Shown here: piece after piece, positions 7,453 through 46,077 of the stretch | How the letters are laid out: the number at the start of each line of letters is the position of its first letter | How positions within the stretch are numbered: the stretch's first letter is position 1 | IMG/VR virus record: IMGVR_UViG_3300033148_002821 | Location: 1 to 46,077 of that record | DNA from: a virus | DNA: 46,077 nucleotides | Reading direction: 5' to 3' (one strand) | Program-made: the position numbers and the translations under genes | The notes under the pieces: generated by a model | Databases searched by the model: none | What the model was told of the DNA's origin: nothing | Seen by the model: only the letters and a program-made list of their open reading frames with translations

Positions 7453-7480
7453 TCTTACGTAGTATATATACTACGTAAGA
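7453..7480. repeat. 28-bp perfect palindrome
   Basis: Bases 7453-7480 read identically on both strands (arms begin TCTTACGTAGTA, centre TATATA). There is no spacer, so it can be a cruciform, a dimeric protein-binding site or an RNA hairpin. G-T pairs extend it slightly outward. It lies 28 bases after the beta-barrel stop. Confidence 0.9.
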
Positions 7481-10941: not shown

Positions 10942-11732
10942 TTCACCACCTCCGGGTTAAACAGTTCCTCTTGGCGTAATCTTTCCTCTGCTATCTTACA
11001 GTATTCCTCTGATATTTCAATACCAATATATTTTCGTCCAAGTTGCTTGGCGGCGACGGCAGTCGTGCCAGAACCTAAAAAGCAGTCGAGGATGAGGTCG
11101 GTAGGGTTGGAAAATGTTTTTATAATTTTAGACGCTAATTCAATAGGCATAGCTGCAGAAAGTTTACCCGGGTAAGTATTGGAATTATTTTTACCGATTC
11201 TAATAATATTTTCAAACGTTCCCCGGTCAAAATTAACGGAAGAAAATTTACGGTGCAAGGGTTTATCGTTTGAAAATATAAATATAAACTCAAAAGAGCT
11301 ATTTAGTACACCATCAGATATTGCTGGTTCTCCATGTAATTTACCCCAAACAATAATATCTTTCAAATAGGAAGAAAACTCGCTCCATATATGTGGAATA
11401 GCCCTTTTATTACCAGTAATTAACTGAATATTATAAAATACATGAGATTTTGCTTTTTTAATTAAATAATGTAAAACATTCTTTTGTTGATTAATATAAA
11501 CATCAATCGGCATATCATCAGTAAACTCATTATACTTAATACGGCTACCATAATTAGCCGAACAATAAATGTCATTTCGTATGCGAAGATTAGCATTGTA
11601 TGGTGGACTCGTAACAACAAGGTCAACCGCACCATCCGGTATTTTCTTCAAAACTTCGAGACAGTCACCGCAGATAACCTTGTTGATAAAATCATCTGGC
11701 CAGATCAGTTCTTTCACGGGTTTGTTAATCAT
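10938..11732 (-). CDS. DNA methyltransferase, TSPPYN (N6-adenine/N4-cytosine) class
   Basis: 264 residues from ATG 11732, which overlaps the GNAT gene stop as ATGA; a longer frame from 11768 would run deep into that gene. The catalytic TSPPYN (residues 41-46) precedes the SAM-binding region DCFLGSGTTAVAAKQLGRKYIGIEI near residues 216-240. This order (catalytic motif first) is the beta class of amino-methyltransferases. No restriction enzyme is adjacent, so it is probably an orphan enzyme protecting phage DNA or cooperating with the GNAT protein. Confidence 0.88.
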   Translation of the reverse strand: MINKPVKELIWPDDFINKVICGDCLEVLKKIPDGAVDLVVTSPPYNANLRIRNDIYCSANYGSRIKYNEFTDDMPIDVYINQQKNVLHYLIKKAKSHVFYNIQLITGNKRAIPHIWSEFSSYLKDIIVWGKLHGEPAISDGVLNSSFEFIFIFSNDKPLHRKFSSVNFDRGTFENIIRIGKNNSNTYPGKLSAAMPIELASKIIKTFSNPTDLILDCFLGSGTTAVAAKQLGRKYIGIEISEEYCKIAEERLRQEELFNPEVVK

Positions 11733-12175
11733 GGTTGCCCCGGGGCTTCCCACAATGTTTTTGGGCATGTTGGTTGCAAGTCGAATCTCGGTCGATTTTT
11801 CCTATCCCATTTACCGCCCCTCGTCTGATATAAAATTTTCCAACCAGAAGCCTTTAAGCAAGTACCAAATTCAGAAGCTAATGTATAAGTTATCAATCTT
11901 TTATATCCCAAATTTTTACATACTCTCCAAGCCGCCGAATATAATTTACTGGCGGCATTTTTATAACCATTAGTACAACACCTCGTAACTTCTAATGTCC
12001 TCCCATTGTCCAACAATCTTGCCACGGGTCGTCCAACCATTATAACTCCAACAATATTACGCCCATCATTAACAGCTATTCCATATTTCCAGCCCTGTGG
12101 TGGTAAGTGATGACTGTGATGTACCTTAATAAATTCACACGCATTCTTGTATGTAATTGGTTGCAACTCTAACAT
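11729..12175 (-). CDS. GNAT-fold protein of XF1762 type (Mom-like modification candidate)
   Basis: 148 residues. The conserved core RPVARLLDNGRTLEVTRCCT (residues 49-68), then NAASKLYSAAWRVCKNLGY and LITYTLASEFGTCLKASGW, is the pattern of the phage XF1762-like N-acetyltransferase-fold proteins. These resemble the Mu Mom adenine-modifying protein in fold and context. It is translationally coupled to a DNA methyltransferase, so a role in base modification is plausible but inferred; generic acetyltransferase activity is the alternative. Confidence 0.7.
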   Translation of the reverse strand: MLELQPITYKNACEFIKVHHSHHLPPQGWKYGIAVNDGRNIVGVIMVGRPVARLLDNGRTLEVTRCCTNGYKNAASKLYSAAWRVCKNLGYKRLITYTLASEFGTCLKASGWKILYQTRGGKWDRKNRPRFDLQPTCPKTLWEAPGQP

Positions 12176-13617: not shown

Positions 13618-14062
13618 TGCTTCGCTCCCTTGCTTTACGTTTCTCCGCATATATCTTCCGTTCAGAGATAATATACTCCCTATCTCTGTTCTTTACCGCC
13701 CGCTGAAAAGCCTCAAACTTTTTCTTGTAATCTTCCCCCGTCAATCCACAGCCGTTATATATGCGGAAAAATTCCACAGAGGCTTTTACGGTGAGTTCGT
13801 CTGCAACATTTTCTTGTGGGGCGGGTATCTGGTTTGGGTTGTATGTCCAGACTTTCCGTAACTGTTCGAGTAGTTCGGATATTTTCGGAAACCATGTCAG
13901 TTCAGTTACGACGGATTCACTCACCTTGCGGAGCTTCTCAATGGGATATGCCTTGACTGCATCCCAATAGTCGTAGTACAGGGGGTCTGTCAGTTCCTTA
14001 CCAAACACCCGCCCCCACTTCAACATTATTGCACAGAACTCTTCGTAATCTTCTTTACGCAT
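13604..14062 (-). CDS. helicase-loader-like replication protein
   Basis: 152 residues. The N-terminal segment (DPLYYDYWDAVKAYPIEKLR followed by TELTWFPKISELLEQL) matches the helical pattern of phage helicase-loader/inhibitor proteins such as the SPP1 G39P group and lambda P-like loaders, in which the W-F-P segment precedes the E-L helix. The C-terminal half is helical and basic, ending in a Lys/Arg-rich tail. It directly follows the replication-protein gene at 14026, as loaders usually do. Probable role: delivering host replicative helicase to the phage origin. Similarity judged by eye. Confidence 0.55.
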   Translation of the reverse strand: MRKEDYEEFCAIMLKWGRVFGKELTDPLYYDYWDAVKAYPIEKLRKVSESVVTELTWFPKISELLEQLRKVWTYNPNQIPAPQENVADELTVKASVEFFRIYNGCGLTGEDYKKKFEAFQRAVKNRDREYIISERKIYAEKRKARERSNETD

Positions 14063-14394
14063 TTATCTTCATCCTCTAATCTCTCTAAAAACTTTTTGGC
14101 GGCCAGAATATTACTCTTATCTTTATTCGTGATGTTCGTTACTTTTCTTGGTTGGTTGAGATAGTTCTCAAATTTGCTCCCATACAGCGTTATAGGTCTG
14201 ATATAGATTGCCATGTCTGTATTGAGCCAGTCAAATATCTTGTTTTCGTGAACCCTGCAAAAATCTTCAAGCCGATACCCCTCCTTCCACCTTGCTCTTA
14301 TTAGCGATTGGTTTTTAGTTGATTTATATCTGTAATTCGTACCCGCTAACTTATTGAGATGGGCTATTATATCTTCGTATGGTATTTCTTTCAC
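14026..14394 (-). CDS. phage replication protein, conserved C-terminal domain (Phg_2220_C-like)
   Basis: GTG start with AAGGATG upstream. 122 residues, nearly all of which match the conserved C-terminal domain of phage replication initiators: LNKLAGTNYRYKST, LIRARWKEGYRLEDF, WLNTDMAIYIRPITLYGSKF, ENYLNQ. In most phages this domain sits at the end of a larger DNA-binding protein (replication protein O type); here it stands alone without the winged-helix half. Overlap with the loader-like gene suggests the two act together at the origin. Confidence 0.75.
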   Translation of the reverse strand: MKEIPYEDIIAHLNKLAGTNYRYKSTKNQSLIRARWKEGYRLEDFCRVHENKIFDWLNTDMAIYIRPITLYGSKFENYLNQPRKVTNITNKDKSNILAAKKFLERLEDEDKCVKKITKSSVQ

Positions 14395-20997: not shown

Positions 20998-21062
20998 TTT
21001 ATTACTCCCTGTTAAAGTTACTTAAGTCAATTAATTCAAATTAAAGGATATTGGGGTTTCCT

Positions 21063-21263
21063 TTAAACTCCCCTTGGAAAGTATTTTTTGAGCTGATTAT
21101 AGCTTAAGTCGTGGGTCAATATACCGCCAAGCTCAACATAATGCTGATAATCGGTCGAGATTGAAGCCCTGTCGATGTCTGTCAGATATTTCAGGGTGTT
21201 AACGCCAAAGGTTTTATAAATTGATGCCGCTATGCTTTGCCGTTTAGGTGATAGTGCTTTCAT
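21063..21263 (-). CDS. small unknown protein (66 aa)
   Basis: AAAGGCGGG ribosome site. Basic N-terminus (MKALSPKRQSIAASIYKTF), then mixed helix and strand. Early position suggests a host-takeover peptide, by position only. Confidence 0.55.
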   Translation of the reverse strand: MKALSPKRQSIAASIYKTFGVNTLKYLTDIDRASISTDYQHYVELGGILTHDLSYNQLKKYFPRGV

Positions 21264-21283
21264 AATTCCCGCCTTTGTTAAGG

Positions 21284-21484
21284 TTATTGTTGCGCTGGTG
21301 ATATAATGACATCGCCTTGCTCTTTAAGCCATCGGGCAATATCAGCGTCTGTCTTGCGAGTTATTGCCGATACCACGTCTTGTTTGGTATGTATCTCAGC
21401 CCAGCGCATACCGTTATTGTTTTGACCGTGTTTTAATATCCGGCCGCTTGCTAAGCGGTCTTGGAATTGTTTAATCTTAATCAT
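21284..21484 (-). CDS. first leftward early gene, small unknown protein (66 aa)
   Basis: AAAGGATGG ribosome site, about 50 bases after the leftward promoter. Sequence includes QDRLASGRILKHGQN and ITRKTDADIARWLKEQG. No family recognised. Confidence 0.6.
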   Translation of the reverse strand: MIKIKQFQDRLASGRILKHGQNNNGMRWAEIHTKQDVVSAITRKTDADIARWLKEQGDVIISPAQQ

Positions 21485-21537
21485 CGTCCCATCCTTTGTT
21501 AATAGTTCTACATATATTATCGGCCTTATCTACATTT

Positions 21538-21565
21538 AATATACATATTATTTAATGTTTGTCAA
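21538..21565 (-). promoter_or_regulatory. strong sigma70-type promoter, leftward
   Basis: -35 TTGACA (21565-21560), 16-base spacer, -10 TATATT (21543-21538). Upstream A-tract plus GACTTGAC identical over 15 bases to the promoter at 18959. Confidence 0.75.
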
Positions 21566-21629
21566 GTCTTTTTTTCGTTTTTTTTATTTTATTTTCTCAG
21601 GGTGTGGCAATTTACCACGGTTTACTCAT

Positions 21630-21656
21630 TCTAAATGAAAATCAATTTCATTTAGA
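21630..21656. promoter_or_regulatory. 11-bp perfect inverted repeat (candidate operator)
   Basis: TCTAAATGAAA (21630-21640) and TTTCATTTAGA (21646-21656) with a 5-base spacer, located between the two divergent promoters. Confidence 0.6.
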
Positions 21657-21768
21657 GCATAAAATGACCAAAATCCCAAACACGTAACTATATGAATAAT
21701 AACATATTATAAAATAGTTTCAAAAAGAGAAAAATAATTGCAGATTTGAGCGACTTTTTGAGCTATTT

Positions 21769-21797
21769 TTGACATATTATAATAAGTATAATATATT
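21769..21797 (+). promoter_or_regulatory. strong sigma70-type promoter, rightward
   Basis: -35 TTGACA (21769-21774), 17-base spacer, -10 TATATT (21792-21797). It drives the gene at 21866 and perhaps the whole rightward unit, since no other strong rightward promoter was seen. Confidence 0.75.
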
Positions 21798-21865
21798 TAT
21801 TTTTTTTTAATTATTATTTTTTTGGTTTTTTGGAGGATATAATATCCGATTCATAAGGTAAGTAC

Positions 21866-22290
21866 ATGACAACTAAGACGTTACTGCAGCGACTTGAAAT
21901 AAAGTACCTGTCGCCTTTAGAGATTCAGTACTTAACTCCAGCTCAAAAGTGGCAGATGATAACATATGAGCACAGAGTCCGGCGTGGAATCAAACGAGAT
22001 CGTGAAGCAATATCTATATATAGACAACATTGTCGGGATAATGGCAGTCCGTACGACATATTGTCAGTACCCGACAGACTCGATGATTATAAGCTTTCCG
22101 AGGACGTTAAGATTATGATATATATGCGGTTAAGTGGCGGTTAAGTGGTTATAACTATACTGAGATAGGCAAAGAGCTTGGGGTACATAGAGTTACAGTC
22201 TCTAAGCGTATTAAGGGGGCTAAGGTAGTTATTGACAGAGCTAATGAGACAGAGACACTTAGAGATATTCAAAATATAGTGGTTATGTAA
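21866..22290 (+). pseudogene. helix-turn-helix regulator split by an 11-bp tandem duplication
   Basis: The open frame from ATG 21866 (AAGG site) ends at 22144 after 92 residues. The 11-mer CGGTTAAGTGG occurs twice in tandem at 22127-22137 and 22138-22148. Removing one copy fuses the frame to 22290 and gives a 137-residue protein whose end (TEIGKELGVHRVTVSKRIKG) is a clear sigma70-region-4/Sin-type helix-turn-helix. As assembled, the protein loses that domain. The unfused 92-residue form may still be made. This could be a slippage switch, a recent mutation or an assembly error. Confidence 0.75.
22127..22148 (+). repeat. perfect 11-bp tandem duplication
   Basis: CGGTTAAGTGG repeated twice with no spacer. 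The length is not a multiple of 3, so it shifts the reading frame of the regulator. Confidence 0.9.
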
Positions 22291-22291
22291 T

Positions 22292-22465
22292 ATGGTGATA
22301 TTATGGCTTGCAGTAACGGTTACTTACATATTCTCGGCGTTGGCAGCGTTACCGATCCTAATATATGCAGGGTTTACCCTGTACGATATGGCTATCGTTT
22401 TTGGAGCTTGTTATGTTATCGCGTTTTGTAATCCATGCAATGCGTTGCATGATAGGGTACTGTGA
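22292..22465 (+). CDS. small membrane protein (57 aa)
   Basis: Begins MVILWLAVTVTYIFSALAAL; two hydrophobic stretches and Cys-containing tail (AFCNPCNALHD). Stop overlaps the next ATG by one base (TGATG). No family recognised. Confidence 0.5.
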   Translation: MVILWLAVTVTYIFSALAALPILIYAGFTLYDMAIVFGACYVIAFCNPCNALHDRVL

Positions 22466-22626
22466 TGGAATGGCTGATAGTGGTAGGTGCGATGGTAGTA
22501 GGCGCAATCCTATGTGTCGGTGCATATAGAAACGGTAAAGAGGATGGCTATGAGCAAGGATGGAACGATAGCTACGAGTACAACAAGCAATACGAGAGCA
22601 AGATAGGGCACGGGGGAAAGAAATGA
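22465..22626 (+). CDS. small membrane protein (53 aa)
   Basis: N-terminal membrane segment (MEWLIVVGAMVVGAILCVGA) and a polar Tyr/Lys-rich tail (GYEQGWNDSYEYNKQY). Coupled to the preceding gene. Unknown. Confidence 0.55.
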   Translation: MEWLIVVGAMVVGAILCVGAYRNGKEDGYEQGWNDSYEYNKQYESKIGHGGKK

Positions 22627-22704
22627 CCGGGGTAGGTGTATATATATGGAACCTTACTTTCATGGAGATATTTTTTTTATAGAATTTAACTTAGGGTATA
22701 CATT

Positions 22705-22917
22705 ATGGTAACTACTAATACTCCTAATTTATCTGAATTCAGTGGTGGTAGGGACGAATATATACGTCAATTATACCAACGTCTTTTAGATTTAGAGCGA
22801 TTAGTCTTTGAGCTTTCTGAGCTACACGATATCACGATAACTTCACATGATGTTATTGGTAACACATATCCTATAATCGTAAAAGAGGCAAAACATAAAA
22901 TTAAGGTAGAGGAATAA
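22705..22917 (+). CDS. small unknown protein (70 aa)
   Basis: Helical middle (DEYIRQLYQRLLDLERLVFE), basic end. No ribosome site of note; a tiny frame (22648-22710) overlaps its start and may couple translation. Confidence 0.45.
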   Translation: MVTTNTPNLSEFSGGRDEYIRQLYQRLLDLERLVFELSELHDITITSHDVIGNTYPIIVKEAKHKIKVEE

Positions 22918-22973
22918 ATATTTTTAATGAATCTGATATTTCAGTACCTAAATAATATTGGAGTAAAGATAAG

Positions 22974-23216: not shown

Positions 23217-23440
23217 ACCTTCTTCTCTGGATAGATATTAATAAGAACCCTATTGTCATGTCCATTATGGCCGTTGTTGCATATCTCTTTGTTTGTCATG
23301 TAGTTGAACCATCAATCATTCAGGCGGTTTTTTATGGTATTATTTTTGGTTTGTGGGGCGGATGGGGAGCCATTGCTCTTGATAAGGCAGAACTTAGAGG
23401 CGAGAAAGGGCAGGTAAGCGATGAAAATCATACTCCCTGA
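23213..23440 (+). CDS. small two-pass membrane protein (75 aa)
   Basis: Hydrophobic segments at about residues 14-30 and 36-55 (AVFYGIIFGLWGGWGAIAL). Overlaps the next gene by 20 bases. Unknown. Confidence 0.5.
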   Translation: MNLLLWIDINKNPIVMSIMAVVAYLFVCHVVEPSIIQAVFYGIIFGLWGGWGAIALDKAELRGEKGQVSDENHTP

Positions 23441-23864
23441 TATAAGAGAAATGACCGATGAAGAGCTTACTGAACAAGAAGGGCTTGAGACGGATATAGC
23501 ATTTATGGTGTGTGCTGAAAAACTAAAAGATATAGATTTAAGGCTTTCGTGGGAACGCCTAAATAGGCACAGAACAAATAAGGGAACTAAAATGGAAACA
23601 ACCACAGCGTTTAAAACACCAGTTCATGATTTTGCATGGGCGTTATCGGAGATGAAGGCGGGGAAGAAGGTTGTACGTGATGGATGGAAGAATGAGGGCG
23701 ATGAAAATAATCTGTATATTTTTATCTGGCCTAAAGAGAAAACGTATAACAACAAAGACCTCATTATTACTTGTTACCGTCCCAAAGACAAAGACGAGTT
23801 TATAGATTGGGGTTTGGACAATGCTGACATTCTCGCTAACGACTGGTATGTTTACGAGGAATAA
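23421..23864 (+). CDS. DUF2829 / Tad2-like protein (anti-Thoeris candidate)
   Basis: 147 residues. Residues ~68-147 follow the DUF2829 pattern: an F-A-W-A-L-x-x-M-K-x-GKKV-x-R-x-G-W opening (FAWALSEMKAGKKVVRDGW), a central LYIFIW strand, and the final ADILANDWYVYEE. DUF2829 includes Tad2, a phage protein that sequesters the cyclic ADP-ribose-type signal of Thoeris defence. An internal ATG at 23592 with an AAGGGA site would give a 90-residue protein of the usual Tad2 size, so the first 57 acidic residues may be an extension or the true start may be internal. Anti-defence role is inferred from family. Confidence 0.65.
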   Translation: MKIILPDIREMTDEELTEQEGLETDIAFMVCAEKLKDIDLRLSWERLNRHRTNKGTKMETTTAFKTPVHDFAWALSEMKAGKKVVRDGWKNEGDENNLYIFIWPKEKTYNNKDLIITCYRPKDKDEFIDWGLDNADILANDWYVYEE

Positions 23865-24577: not shown

Positions 24578-25153
24578 ATGAAGAAAATAATTAGCTTATT
24601 TAAGAGGGATTATGGTGGTAATAGGCTTGTTTTTGATGAGGTCGTTGAGGGTGCAGAATGGGTGATTGACGGTGAGGGTACGCCTACCCGAAAGTGGAAT
24701 GGGACTTGTTGTATGGTAAGAGATGGAAATTTATATCGTCGATATACGGTTAAAGCCACTGCTATTGAGCGCAAGATGATACCTGTGGGTTTTGAGCCAT
24801 GTACTGATATAAGTGTCGTGACCGGAAAACAGGAGGGTTGGGTTCCGGTAGGATGGGGCAATCAAGACAAGTGGCATCGTGAAGCCCTAAAATCAAAAGA
24901 CCCATTTAAAGTTGATTTGCCCGATGGTACGTATGAACTCTGCGGTGAAAAGGTTCAGGGGAATCCCGAAAAAATAATAGGCCACACACTGATACCGCAC
25001 GGAAAAGACATCCTGAATGATGTTCCTCGTGATTTCGGTGGAATAAAAGAGTGGTTTAAGGGTAAAGATATTGAAGGTGTTGTGTGGTGGCATTCAGACG
25101 GCAGGATGGTAAAGATAAAAAAGAAGGATTTTGGACTAAAGAGAAGTGAATAA
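24578..25153 (+). CDS. RNA ligase (DUF5565-type)
   Basis: 191 residues. Nucleotidyl-transferase motif I RKWNGTCC (Lys39 as the adenylated residue, K-x-x-G), an ELCGEKVQGNPE segment resembling motif IIIa, IEGVVWWHSDG (motif IV) and MVKIKKKDFGL (motif V). This fits the small RNA ligase 1/DUF5565 family. Such enzymes repair host tRNA cut by anticodon nucleases during infection. No kinase/phosphatase partner is seen nearby. The start has only a weak ribosome site. Confidence 0.78.
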   Translation: MKKIISLFKRDYGGNRLVFDEVVEGAEWVIDGEGTPTRKWNGTCCMVRDGNLYRRYTVKATAIERKMIPVGFEPCTDISVVTGKQEGWVPVGWGNQDKWHREALKSKDPFKVDLPDGTYELCGEKVQGNPEKIIGHTLIPHGKDILNDVPRDFGGIKEWFKGKDIEGVVWWHSDGRMVKIKKKDFGLKRSE

Positions 25154-27927: not shown

Positions 27928-30261
27928 ATGCCCCATGAAAAACAGTTGGCTTTTCACAAATCACAAGCATCAAAGCGTGGATTATTTGGCGGCAACCAAA
28001 GCGGGAAGTCATGGGCTGGTGCGGTGGAACTTGCATGGACTATCGGGAAGGTGCATCCCTATCGACAAAATTATGCTGGTTCTGTGTTCGCAAGAGACTG
28101 CTGTGTTACGTTTGGTGTTTTGCAGTCAACCCTGATACCAGTATATCAGAGGTTACTTCCTCGTAAGCCCTGCGTGCTTCCAGACAAGACGTTTGAGGGG
28201 GGTGTCAGGAGGTGGCCGGGCTTACGGGGGGGGGGGTGGAGTACCGCCTATAACCGTGAGAACAAGATGCTCCACCTTAGCGACGGGAGTTTTATCGAAT
28301 TTAAGTGTTTGCGTGGAGACCAACGCATATTAATGCCAAGTGGTTTATGGAAACGAGTAGATGATGTTGTAGAGGGTGATATTGTAGTTTCTCCTACTGG
28401 AAACACGAAAGTTGTCCATGTGTTTAAATATAATGATGCAACTGTATTTCGTGTAAGAACCTTTGAGGGGAGACAGGTTGTCGCCACCCCAAACCACAAA
28501 CATTTTCTAAATAATGGTAGCTTAAAAACTACCGAAGAATTGGAGGTTGGTGATACCCTCAAGGTTTATTGGCAGGAGAGTGACCATGTTCCTACCGGGG
28601 ATGTATCTCTTGAGAAATGGCAATTAGGTTGGCTTGCTATTCTTATTGGTGATGGTTGCTTGCGCCGAAAGGATGCTGGTTTTACTGCGGTGGAAGGTGG
28701 GCGTGTGCTGTCTGATTTGCCTCCCCTACCACCCGGAACGTATATAAATCACATCGGTAAAATGGATTATAGGGTGGCACTAAAAAAGCCAAAGGTAAAA
28801 AATAATCCATTAGTTGTCTGGGTTAAATCTTTGGGTTTGTGGGGTAAAAAAAGTCCAGAGAAATTCGTTCCCGATGTTGTGTTTCTTCAGAAGCCATTAG
28901 ATATAGCATACTTCCTGAAACATCTATGGAATTGTGACGGAACAATTAACTACCCAAAGCGTCAGGCGACGTATTGTAGTGCGTCGGCAGCGTTAGCGTA
29001 TGATGTTAAATATCTTCTTTGGTCACTCGGCATTCATGCGTCTTTGACTAAGTTTATTTCTACATGCACCAATACGGGTAAAAAGGGAATAGCATATCAT
29101 ACGAGGGTTTCTGGTGGTTCATTTGATAGATTTATTCTTGCTATCGGGGGTAATGAAAACTTCGCCAATGTTCCCATTGTAAATAAGAGGGTTCATGGTA
29201 AGATTGTATCAATAGAGCAACTTGATAATTGCCCGGTCTATGGGTTACAAGTAGATAATGAAGAGCATGCTCTTATTGTAGATGGACTCGTGACACATAA
29301 TTCCTACGATCAACCCTTGGATTCTTTTGCAGGCCCGCCACGACACATAATACGTATGGATGAAGAACCGCCAATAGCGTATTACAATGAGAATCAGGCA
29401 CGTCAGGTAACGATTGGTGTCAATATGCTCTTTACGATGACGCCGTTGAATTATTCCCAATGGCTCTATGCACAAATATATGAGGAGTCATTAAAAGACC
29501 CGGATATAGATGCTTTCAAGATGGCAAGCAGGGAGAACCCCTATGCGAATCCGAATGTTTTGGAGAAAATGGAAAAAGATATATCCGACCCTATTGAACG
29601 GGCGGCACGGTTGCATGGGGAGTTTACCTTCGCAGAGGGGCGGGTATGGAAAGAATATGGTGACCATAATTTAATCGACCCCATAGAAATTCCTTCAGAC
29701 TGGCACAGGTCGGTTATTATCGACCCGCATCCAGAAAAGCCAACGGCAGTAAACTGGATAGCTGAGGATTTTCAGGGGCGATTATATAACTACGAGGAAG
29801 GTGATTTTGCGGGGGATGTTGAGAGTATATGCCATCAGATATTTGCAAAATGCCGAGGTGAGCATATAGATTTATGGCTGGTTGACCCATCTTCACGACA
29901 GAGCGCAACTATCAGGGGGCAGGGTTCACTTGTTAATGAGTTTAGAAAATATATCCCGTATTTAATTGAAGCCAACAATAGACGGGAACAGGGATGGGAT
30001 GCAGTTAGAAAAATGGTGAAGGACGACCCGATAACAGGGCCAAAACTCTTCGTTTTTAAAAGCTGTCCCCTTACGGATTTTCAAATGCGCAACTATTCAT
30101 GGAAGCCACCAACCCTTTCAGGGGAGGACAGGCGTAAACCGGAAGTTGTTAAACGTAATGACGATCACAACGACTGCATCAGGTATCGTGTAATGTGGCA
30201 ACGACCCACAGGTGGAGGATTTAAAGGATGGGGGGCAATAGGGATATATGGCAACGGATAA
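27928..30261 (+). CDS. terL: terminase large subunit, interrupted by an intein
   Basis: Packaging ATPase/nuclease. Walker A GGNQSGKS (residues 21-28), Walker B/DEEP motif IIRMDEEPP just after the intein. The C-terminal nuclease domain has VIIDPHPE and LVDPSSRQ acidic strands and a final NDDHNDCIRY. The intein occupies residues 127-458; without it the protein is 445 residues from ATG 27928. The frame stays open upstream to 27841 (the stop just before it ends at 27840), and the upstream codons read like terminase (RLKDEGLRFY), so a non-ATG start, perhaps ATA 27841 after AAGGGAG, is likely. An 11-G run (28226-28236) lies in the ATPase domain. Portal overlaps the end by 14 bases. Confidence 0.93.
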   Translation: MPHEKQLAFHKSQASKRGLFGGNQSGKSWAGAVELAWTIGKVHPYRQNYAGSVFARDCCVTFGVLQSTLIPVYQRLLPRKPCVLPDKTFEGGVRRWPGLRGGGWSTAYNRENKMLHLSDGSFIEFKCLRGDQRILMPSGLWKRVDDVVEGDIVVSPTGNTKVVHVFKYNDATVFRVRTFEGRQVVATPNHKHFLNNGSLKTTEELEVGDTLKVYWQESDHVPTGDVSLEKWQLGWLAILIGDGCLRRKDAGFTAVEGGRVLSDLPPLPPGTYINHIGKMDYRVALKKPKVKNNPLVVWVKSLGLWGKKSPEKFVPDVVFLQKPLDIAYFLKHLWNCDGTINYPKRQATYCSASAALAYDVKYLLWSLGIHASLTKFISTCTNTGKKGIAYHTRVSGGSFDRFILAIGGNENFANVPIVNKRVHGKIVSIEQLDNCPVYGLQVDNEEHALIVDGLVTHNSYDQPLDSFAGPPRHIIRMDEEPPIAYYNENQARQVTIGVNMLFTMTPLNYSQWLYAQIYEESLKDPDIDAFKMASRENPYANPNVLEKMEKDISDPIERAARLHGEFTFAEGRVWKEYGDHNLIDPIEIPSDWHRSVIIDPHPEKPTAVNWIAEDFQGRLYNYEEGDFAGDVESICHQIFAKCRGEHIDLWLVDPSSRQSATIRGQGSLVNEFRKYIPYLIEANNRREQGWDAVRKMVKDDPITGPKLFVFKSCPLTDFQMRNYSWKPPTLSGEDRRKPEVVKRNDDHNDCIRYRVMWQRPTGGGFKGWGAIGIYGNG
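28306..29301 (+). other. LAGLIDADG-type intein within terminase (332 aa)
   Basis: First residue Cys (block A CLRGDQRIL), block B VVATPNHKHFL, a homing-endonuclease core with two LAGLIDADG-like motifs (LGWLAILIGDGCL and YFLKHLWNCDGTI), block F near GLQVDNEEHAL, and the terminal VTHN followed by Ser as first downstream extein residue. Splicing would join FK to SYDQ, rebuilding the I-x-F-K-S-Y-x-Q motif of terminases next to the DEEP motif. All splice residues are present, so it is probably active. Confidence 0.92.
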
Positions 30262-44817: not shown

Positions 44818-46077
44818 ATATATATTTATAATATTCTTTTTATTATTCGGTTTGGCTCATGCCAATCAGGTTTCTATTGGTAGTAGTGACTTGCCATATA
44901 CGGCTTCAACGGCATATGATACCATCACATTTAGCACCAGTAAAATCACAACCTCAGGGAGTGGTATCTATGTCACGGCCAACTATGTCACGATTGATTT
45001 GCGTGATGACACTCTTGAGTTTGGAACTGGTTATACTGATAACGGACTGATATTACATGGCGGGGGAACTGGAGCTTCGGATTCGTCTTGGAATTGTGTC
45101 AATATACGTACTCTTGGTGGATTAACGGATGGTATCACGATTACCAATGTCGATATGGAGATTTATGGCTGGGATGGTCATAATTATTATCACGAGGATG
45201 CCTCAGTTAAAAACCTTGTAATCTCAGGGGGGAGATTAGTTGACCATATTGACGGTTTCACAAATAGATGCCAGAATACAGGTATTAGTGTTTTCCCAAG
45301 TTCAGGTTCATATAGTGGGAGTTTTACCATTCACGATGTTACTATTGATACATGGGCGCACGCCATTGCTGGAGGAGGCCTTATTGAGATTTATAATTGT
45401 TCGCTCCTGATAGATGCGAAAAATGATTTATATACTTACCCTTCTGGTAATACTTGTCATTCATCTATTGGCCCTGGGGGAGTAGGCCTGTGGGAACCAG
45501 CCGCAGGAACTAAAATTCACGATAATGTTATTGTTGCTGGTAGTGAAAACGAGGGATGTTCAGGGGGGATTTCAATAAGTTACGGAGAAGGAACTGCCGA
45601 AAACCCCATCGAAATTTACAATAATAAGGTTACTTTGCATCGTGGCCCCGACGACTGTTATGGTGGGGTTACAGCTAAGGGATATAAACAGCGTTGGGGA
45701 AATAAACATATTCACGTTTACGATAATGAATTTTATGTAAGCGCCCATTCCGATTCGGGCAGTCATGCTTCAGCGTGGTGGACTGCCTGTGAGGGAATTG
45801 ATATTTGTTTTACGACCGGTGCATACGGAGAAGAGGGGGATTATTGCGATAGTTTTACTGTGATTGAGAATAATCATATTGAAGCTGTAGCGTTGGATAG
45901 TGATTCTCGTGGAACGGGGATGAGGCTGTCCGTGAGAAACGAATTACATGATTACGATTTCGTGGGAGCGGGGAACGTTTTCAGACATAATTATTTTGGT
46001 AGTAGCACTTCTGGTGTTGAATTTGGTAAAGGGGATTGTGGTTTATGCAACTCCGTTGTACTCATTGGTGATACCAT
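44810..46077 (+). CDS. secreted beta-helix spike/fibre protein, N-terminal part (continues at base 1)
   Basis: The GTG start overlaps the end of the preceding gene and has a GGAGG-type ribosome site (around 44796). The first ~20 residues form a signal peptide: MNK, a hydrophobic run rich in Ile/Phe/Leu, then a GLAHA-type cleavage site. The next ~400 residues are short strands with recurrent His/Asn/Asp-Asn turns (IHDN, IYNN, VYDNEF), typical of right-handed parallel beta-helix proteins of the pectate-lyase/NosD fold, common in phage tailspikes. The frame is open at the window end and joins exactly to the frame ending at 997, giving a 716-residue protein across the contig junction. It probably binds or degrades a surface polysaccharide. 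No catalytic residues could be assigned. The signal peptide is unusual for a tailspike. Confidence 0.8.
   Translation, partial: MNKYIFIIFFLLFGLAHANQVSIGSSDLPYTASTAYDTITFSTSKITTSGSGIYVTANYVTIDLRDDTLEFGTGYTDNGLILHGGGTGASDSSWNCVNIRTLGGLTDGITITNVDMEIYGWDGHNYYHEDASVKNLVISGGRLVDHIDGFTNRCQNTGISVFPSSGSYSGSFTIHDVTIDTWAHAIAGGGLIEIYNCSLLIDAKNDLYTYPSGNTCHSSIGPGGVGLWEPAAGTKIHDNVIVAGSENEGCSGGISISYGEGTAENPIEIYNNKVTLHRGPDDCYGGVTAKGYKQRWGNKHIHVYDNEFYVSAHSDSGSHASAWWTACEGIDICFTTGAYGEEGDYCDSFTVIENNHIEAVALDSDSRGTGMRLSVRNELHDYDFVGAGNVFRHNYFGSSTSGVEFGKGDCGLCNSVVLIGDT
45964..46077. repeat. terminal direct repeat, right copy (circular contig overlap)
   Basis: Identical to bases 1-114. Counting the overlap once gives a 45,963-bp circle. 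The overlap falls inside a coding region rather than an intergenic region, which fits an arbitrary assembly breakpoint better than a packaging site. Confidence 0.95.

Follow-up and report, generated by a model that had tools for sequence, protein, structure and literature searches.

An 11-bp tandem duplication shifts the frame within a helix-turn-helix gene heading the rightward unit of a viral genome

The first rightward gene carries an 11-bp tandem duplication

We analyzed a stretch of 46,077 nucleotides (nt), here called the window, which is one virus record in its own right (IMG/VR record IMGVR_UViG_3300033148_002821). An exact 114-bp direct repeat is present at both ends (1-114 and 45964-46077), and this terminal repeat makes it probable that the genome is complete, at about 45,963 bp. 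The genes are arranged as two divergent units, one of leftward genes and one of rightward genes from 21866 on. The gene at 21866 is the first rightward gene past the divergent gap (21485-21865), and it contains the 11-bp unit CGGTTAAGTGG twice. The features at this locus are as follows:

21866-22144, plus strand: shortened open reading frame (ORF) of the two-copy state, 92 amino acids (ORF list, codon usage)
22111-22290, plus strand: shifted-frame open stretch that codes for a helix-turn-helix and ends with the old stop TAA at 22288-22290 (translation, profile match, codon usage)
22127-22137, plus strand: first copy of CGGTTAAGTGG (direct sequence comparison)
22138-22148, plus strand: second copy of CGGTTAAGTGG, holding the premature stop TAA at 22142-22144 (direct sequence comparison)

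A previous reading of the locus, made from the sequence only, held that an 11-bp tandem duplication at 22127-22148 shifts the frame, and our comparison bears this out. The two copies stand head to tail without a mismatch, and the match extends one base leftward to give a 23-bp repeat at 22126-22148. When we searched the window for perfect tandem repeats with a period of 10-40 bp and a unit containing four bases, this pair was the sole hit; among 60 dinucleotide-shuffled versions of the window, 2 held a repeat of the same kind. On its own the duplication is unusual, not extreme, and it is the effect on the frame that makes the case convincing. The frame that runs from 21866, with a plausible start, is closed by the stop inside the second copy after 92 codons, the product ending in ...MRLSGG. 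Copy number thus alters the frame inside a gene, as expected of a contingency locus, the repeat being 11 bp x 2 and not a multiple of three.

Leaving out one 11-mer gave a protein of 137 residues, which reproduced a further claim of the sequence-only reading. Many alternative deletions within 22106-22149 would likewise open the frame, so that finding the fusion open carries little weight by itself. We examined codon usage with a model trained on the larger genes of the window. Between 21866 and 22105, frame 2 scored +12.8 bits and the other frames about -60, while between 22150 and 22287 frame 1 scored +16.9 bits and the others -30 and -85; the interval between them, 22106-22149, gave no decision. 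These scores strongly favor one frame in each half, so both halves look like genuine coding sequence, in different frames. The downstream half (22150-22287) is free of stops and has normal codon usage, as expected for a recent break. In the one-copy reading, to which these values apply, the protein has 24 lysine or arginine residues versus 18 aspartate or glutamate residues and a pI of 9.5.

The downstream frame probably encodes a helix-turn-helix of the sigma region 4 type

Profile scores provide a sharper test than the open fusion. Residues 76-115 of the one-copy protein aligned with Sigma70_r4_2 (Pfam PF08281), and the alignment spans the junction between the two frames. The whole one-copy protein scored 24.3 bits, just under the curated cut-off of 25.7 bits, and its C-terminal 64 residues scored 25.7 bits, at the cut-off. 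The rival readings scored lower: one that retains both copies in a forced-open frame reached 19.1 bits, and one that joins the frames where their overlap begins reached 17.4 bits. The description of the regulator as ending in a helix-turn-helix needs adjustment: the match is there, but about 22 residues follow it. A match to sigma region 2 was not found in the one-copy protein, whose N-terminal 75 residues gave no convincing profile match. The gene product showed a weak match to an antitermination Q-like family (0.012), and none to RinA, ArpU, or Ltr profiles. Built without alignments, the AlphaFold models of the two halves were of poor quality, with mean pLDDT values of 65.6 and 47.7, and strands were predicted for the helix-turn-helix half; neither model was used.

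We looked for relatives of the full-length protein among phages (at both the DNA and the protein level) and plasmids, in eight viral scans, and in a single genome scan. These searches, from which very near records were possibly omitted, gave no homologue. Seven viral loci were matched, and these share just generic helix-turn-helix stretches.

The two-copy allele very probably yields the short form alone

From its opening up to 22279, the shifted frame contains no ATG, GTG, or TTG codon but just ATA or ATT codons, and internal initiation for the helix-turn-helix was rejected as no start signal was found. Joining the two frames by recoding would need a shift of -1, and 22100-22144 lacks an X XXY YYZ slippery heptamer; nor does the overlap of the two frames (22111-22144) contain a run of at least five identical bases. 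With neither a start codon nor a slippery heptamer, the sequenced allele very probably yields the 92-residue form alone. The helix-turn-helix should therefore not be counted as expressed from the two-copy allele, and the annotation should be corrected so that the 92-amino-acid ORF is read as a frameshifted helix-turn-helix gene.

Two small genes follow the old stop:

22292-22465, plus strand: next gene, a hydrophobic protein of 57 amino acids, starting 1 nt past the old stop
22465-22626, plus strand: following protein of 53 amino acids with a hydrophobic N-terminus, its start overlapping the previous stop (TGATG)

The tight packing of the old stop and the start at 22292 suggests that the next gene is probably coupled translationally to the full-length gene, in which case the early stop would break the coupling. 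The ribosome-site score of the 22292 gene was -2.7, equal to the random median, and weak scores were also found at several other genes of the window.

The region upstream of the gene contains one promoter-like site of note:

21769-21797, plus strand: promoter-like site TTGACA-17-TATATT, an 11/12 match, upstream of the first rightward gene

The gene had been described as the first after a strong rightward promoter. It is indeed the first rightward gene, while the word strong comes down to the 11/12 match alone; the AT-rich upstream region held 9 promoter-like sites versus 7.8 ± 2.2 in shuffles, which is no excess. A perfect 11-bp inverted repeat, TCTAAATGAAA-atcaa-TTTCATTTAGA, lies at 21630-21656 between the two divergent promoter-like sites and is a candidate operator.

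A recent loss-of-function allele is the favored explanation

We favor, with somewhat better than even confidence, a real duplication that arose as a recent slippage mutation and left a loss-of-function allele of a helix-turn-helix regulator heading the rightward unit. The exact duplication, the coding character of both halves, the profile fit across the junction, and the stop-free downstream frame all favor this explanation, as do the lack of another route to the helix-turn-helix and the 1-nt gap between the old stop and the next start. A single replication-slippage event would have duplicated 11 bp within a gene of 137 codons, leaving an allele predicted to encode a 92-residue protein without recognition helices and probably lowering translation of the tightly packed gene at 22292. 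The regulator would then be dispensable under the sampled conditions, or else a repressor, its loss tolerated or favored. Reversion by slippage would be possible, as for any short tandem duplication, without the repeat being an evolved switch. The earlier proposal of a switch acting on the whole late unit is unlikely, since the genome, otherwise intact, was assembled with the two-copy allele. Were the protein required to turn on every late gene, it would be difficult to account for a population in which the broken allele predominates; a dispensable regulator, or a repressor with tolerated loss, fits better than a required late activator.

Several points weigh against the loss-of-function reading. 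We infer the ancestral one-copy state from the single sequence, and no relative found in our searches carries the gene. The Sigma70_r4 model slightly favors the forced-open two-copy reading (21.7 versus 20.6 bits), so the profile scores are good yet not unanimous, one model dissenting by 1.1 bits. Finally, the one-copy reading is the intact one, and the duplication is known here from the assembled sequence alone, as would be the case if the true genome had one copy and the second were an artefact of assembly or sequencing. We consider such an artefact unlikely. The contig closes by its exact terminal repeat, the 23-bp repeat fits within one ordinary read, and a spurious exact 11-bp duplication is not a usual read error. 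By-eye comparison of a codon-usage segmentation with the ORF list placed the changes of frame at ORF boundaries, which indicates that indel errors are not common; the segmentation leaves 21022-22955 uncalled and thus checks the rest of the genome, not the gene at 21866. A gross assembly fault is likewise unlikely.

Less probable again is phase variation, in which slippage between one and two copies flips the regulator between its full and short versions often enough to be useful. The gene does head the rightward unit, and short duplications within the frame of a gene are described as reversible for the pneumococcal capsule genes cap3A, cap8E, and tts, in the passages of PMC4243769 and PMC2995930 that cite Waite et al. 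2001 and 2003. There, as here, a spontaneous short duplication breaks the reading frame and losing one copy can restore the gene, but the pneumococcal variation is reported there as high-frequency and reversible, whereas we have a single sequence and a phage regulator. Moreover, two copies are the minimum left by one slippage and form no long contingency tract, no relatives with a one- or two-copy allele were found in our searches, and, were the regulator required for late genes, the assembly would not be expected to show the two-copy allele. Unless both alleles occur in reads or relatives, the duplication is most likely an ordinary mutation. Slippage switches are known mainly in bacterial surface genes. 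Were the duplication at 22127-22148 to prove reversible, a phage regulator would have such a switch.

It is improbable that the 92-residue form is the one that functions, with the helix-turn-helix frame downstream left as a remnant. This form is the ORF as sequenced, but the downstream frame retains strong codon usage without a stop, and the 92-residue product had no family match in profile scans and ends inside the region 4 alignment. More doubtful still is a regulator that heads the rightward unit and switches reversibly between two states, with 11-bp slippage toggling between a DNA-binding and a short form; in that reading the short form may interfere with the DNA-binding one, and translation of the coupled small membrane protein would change too. 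Programmed recoding that fuses the two frames across their overlap of about 33 nt (22111-22144) is very improbable, as the required signals are missing and the exact tandem duplication accounts for the shift by itself.

In its one-copy reading, the gene bears comparison with late regulators of the RinA/Ltr type (about 130 amino acids), being small (137 amino acids), basic, and adjacent to the transcription unit that holds the structural genes. RinA/Ltr-type regulators sit upstream of their promoter (PMC13123087). The gene at 21866 comes after the promoter-like site at 21769, apparently a different arrangement.

Other features of the genome

The leftward unit encodes replication and modification functions, including a Sak4-like protein, a single-strand binding protein, a Holliday junction resolvase, a methyltransferase, a DnaD-like/replication-initiation C-terminal domain, and a Mom-like protein. 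The Mom-like DNA modification protein (11729-12175) adjoins the N6/N4 DNA methyltransferase. The DnaD-like gene (14026-14394) was suspected to be broken too, which reading of its upstream frames did not bear out. An integrase or named repressor was not found among the subset of ORFs scanned. A perfect 28-bp palindrome, TCTTACGTAGTATATATACTACGTAAGA, lies at 7453-7480 between the converging ends of rightward and leftward units and is a candidate terminator or protein site.

The rightward unit includes a Tad2-like domain, an RNA ligase, an intein-bearing large terminase, an SU10-type portal, a major head protein candidate, and an SU10-type adaptor. The Tad2-like (Thoeris anti-defence) domain (Pfam PF11195, 4.4e-13) is C-terminal in the protein at 23421-23864. 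Near relatives of the head, portal, Sak4-like, and 846-amino-acid proteins were not found in the viral collection, from which very near records were possibly omitted. The intein of the large terminase gene (27928-30261) has a LAGLIDADG-type endonuclease domain. The RNA ligase (24578-25153; PHROG 14301, 8.5e-70) is common to mycobacteriophages, Cellulophaga phages, and many environmental viral contigs at about 38-58% identity. A search with it gave 32 loci, in which the other window genes tested do not recur, except for weak matches to the terminase, intein, endonuclease, and methyltransferase.
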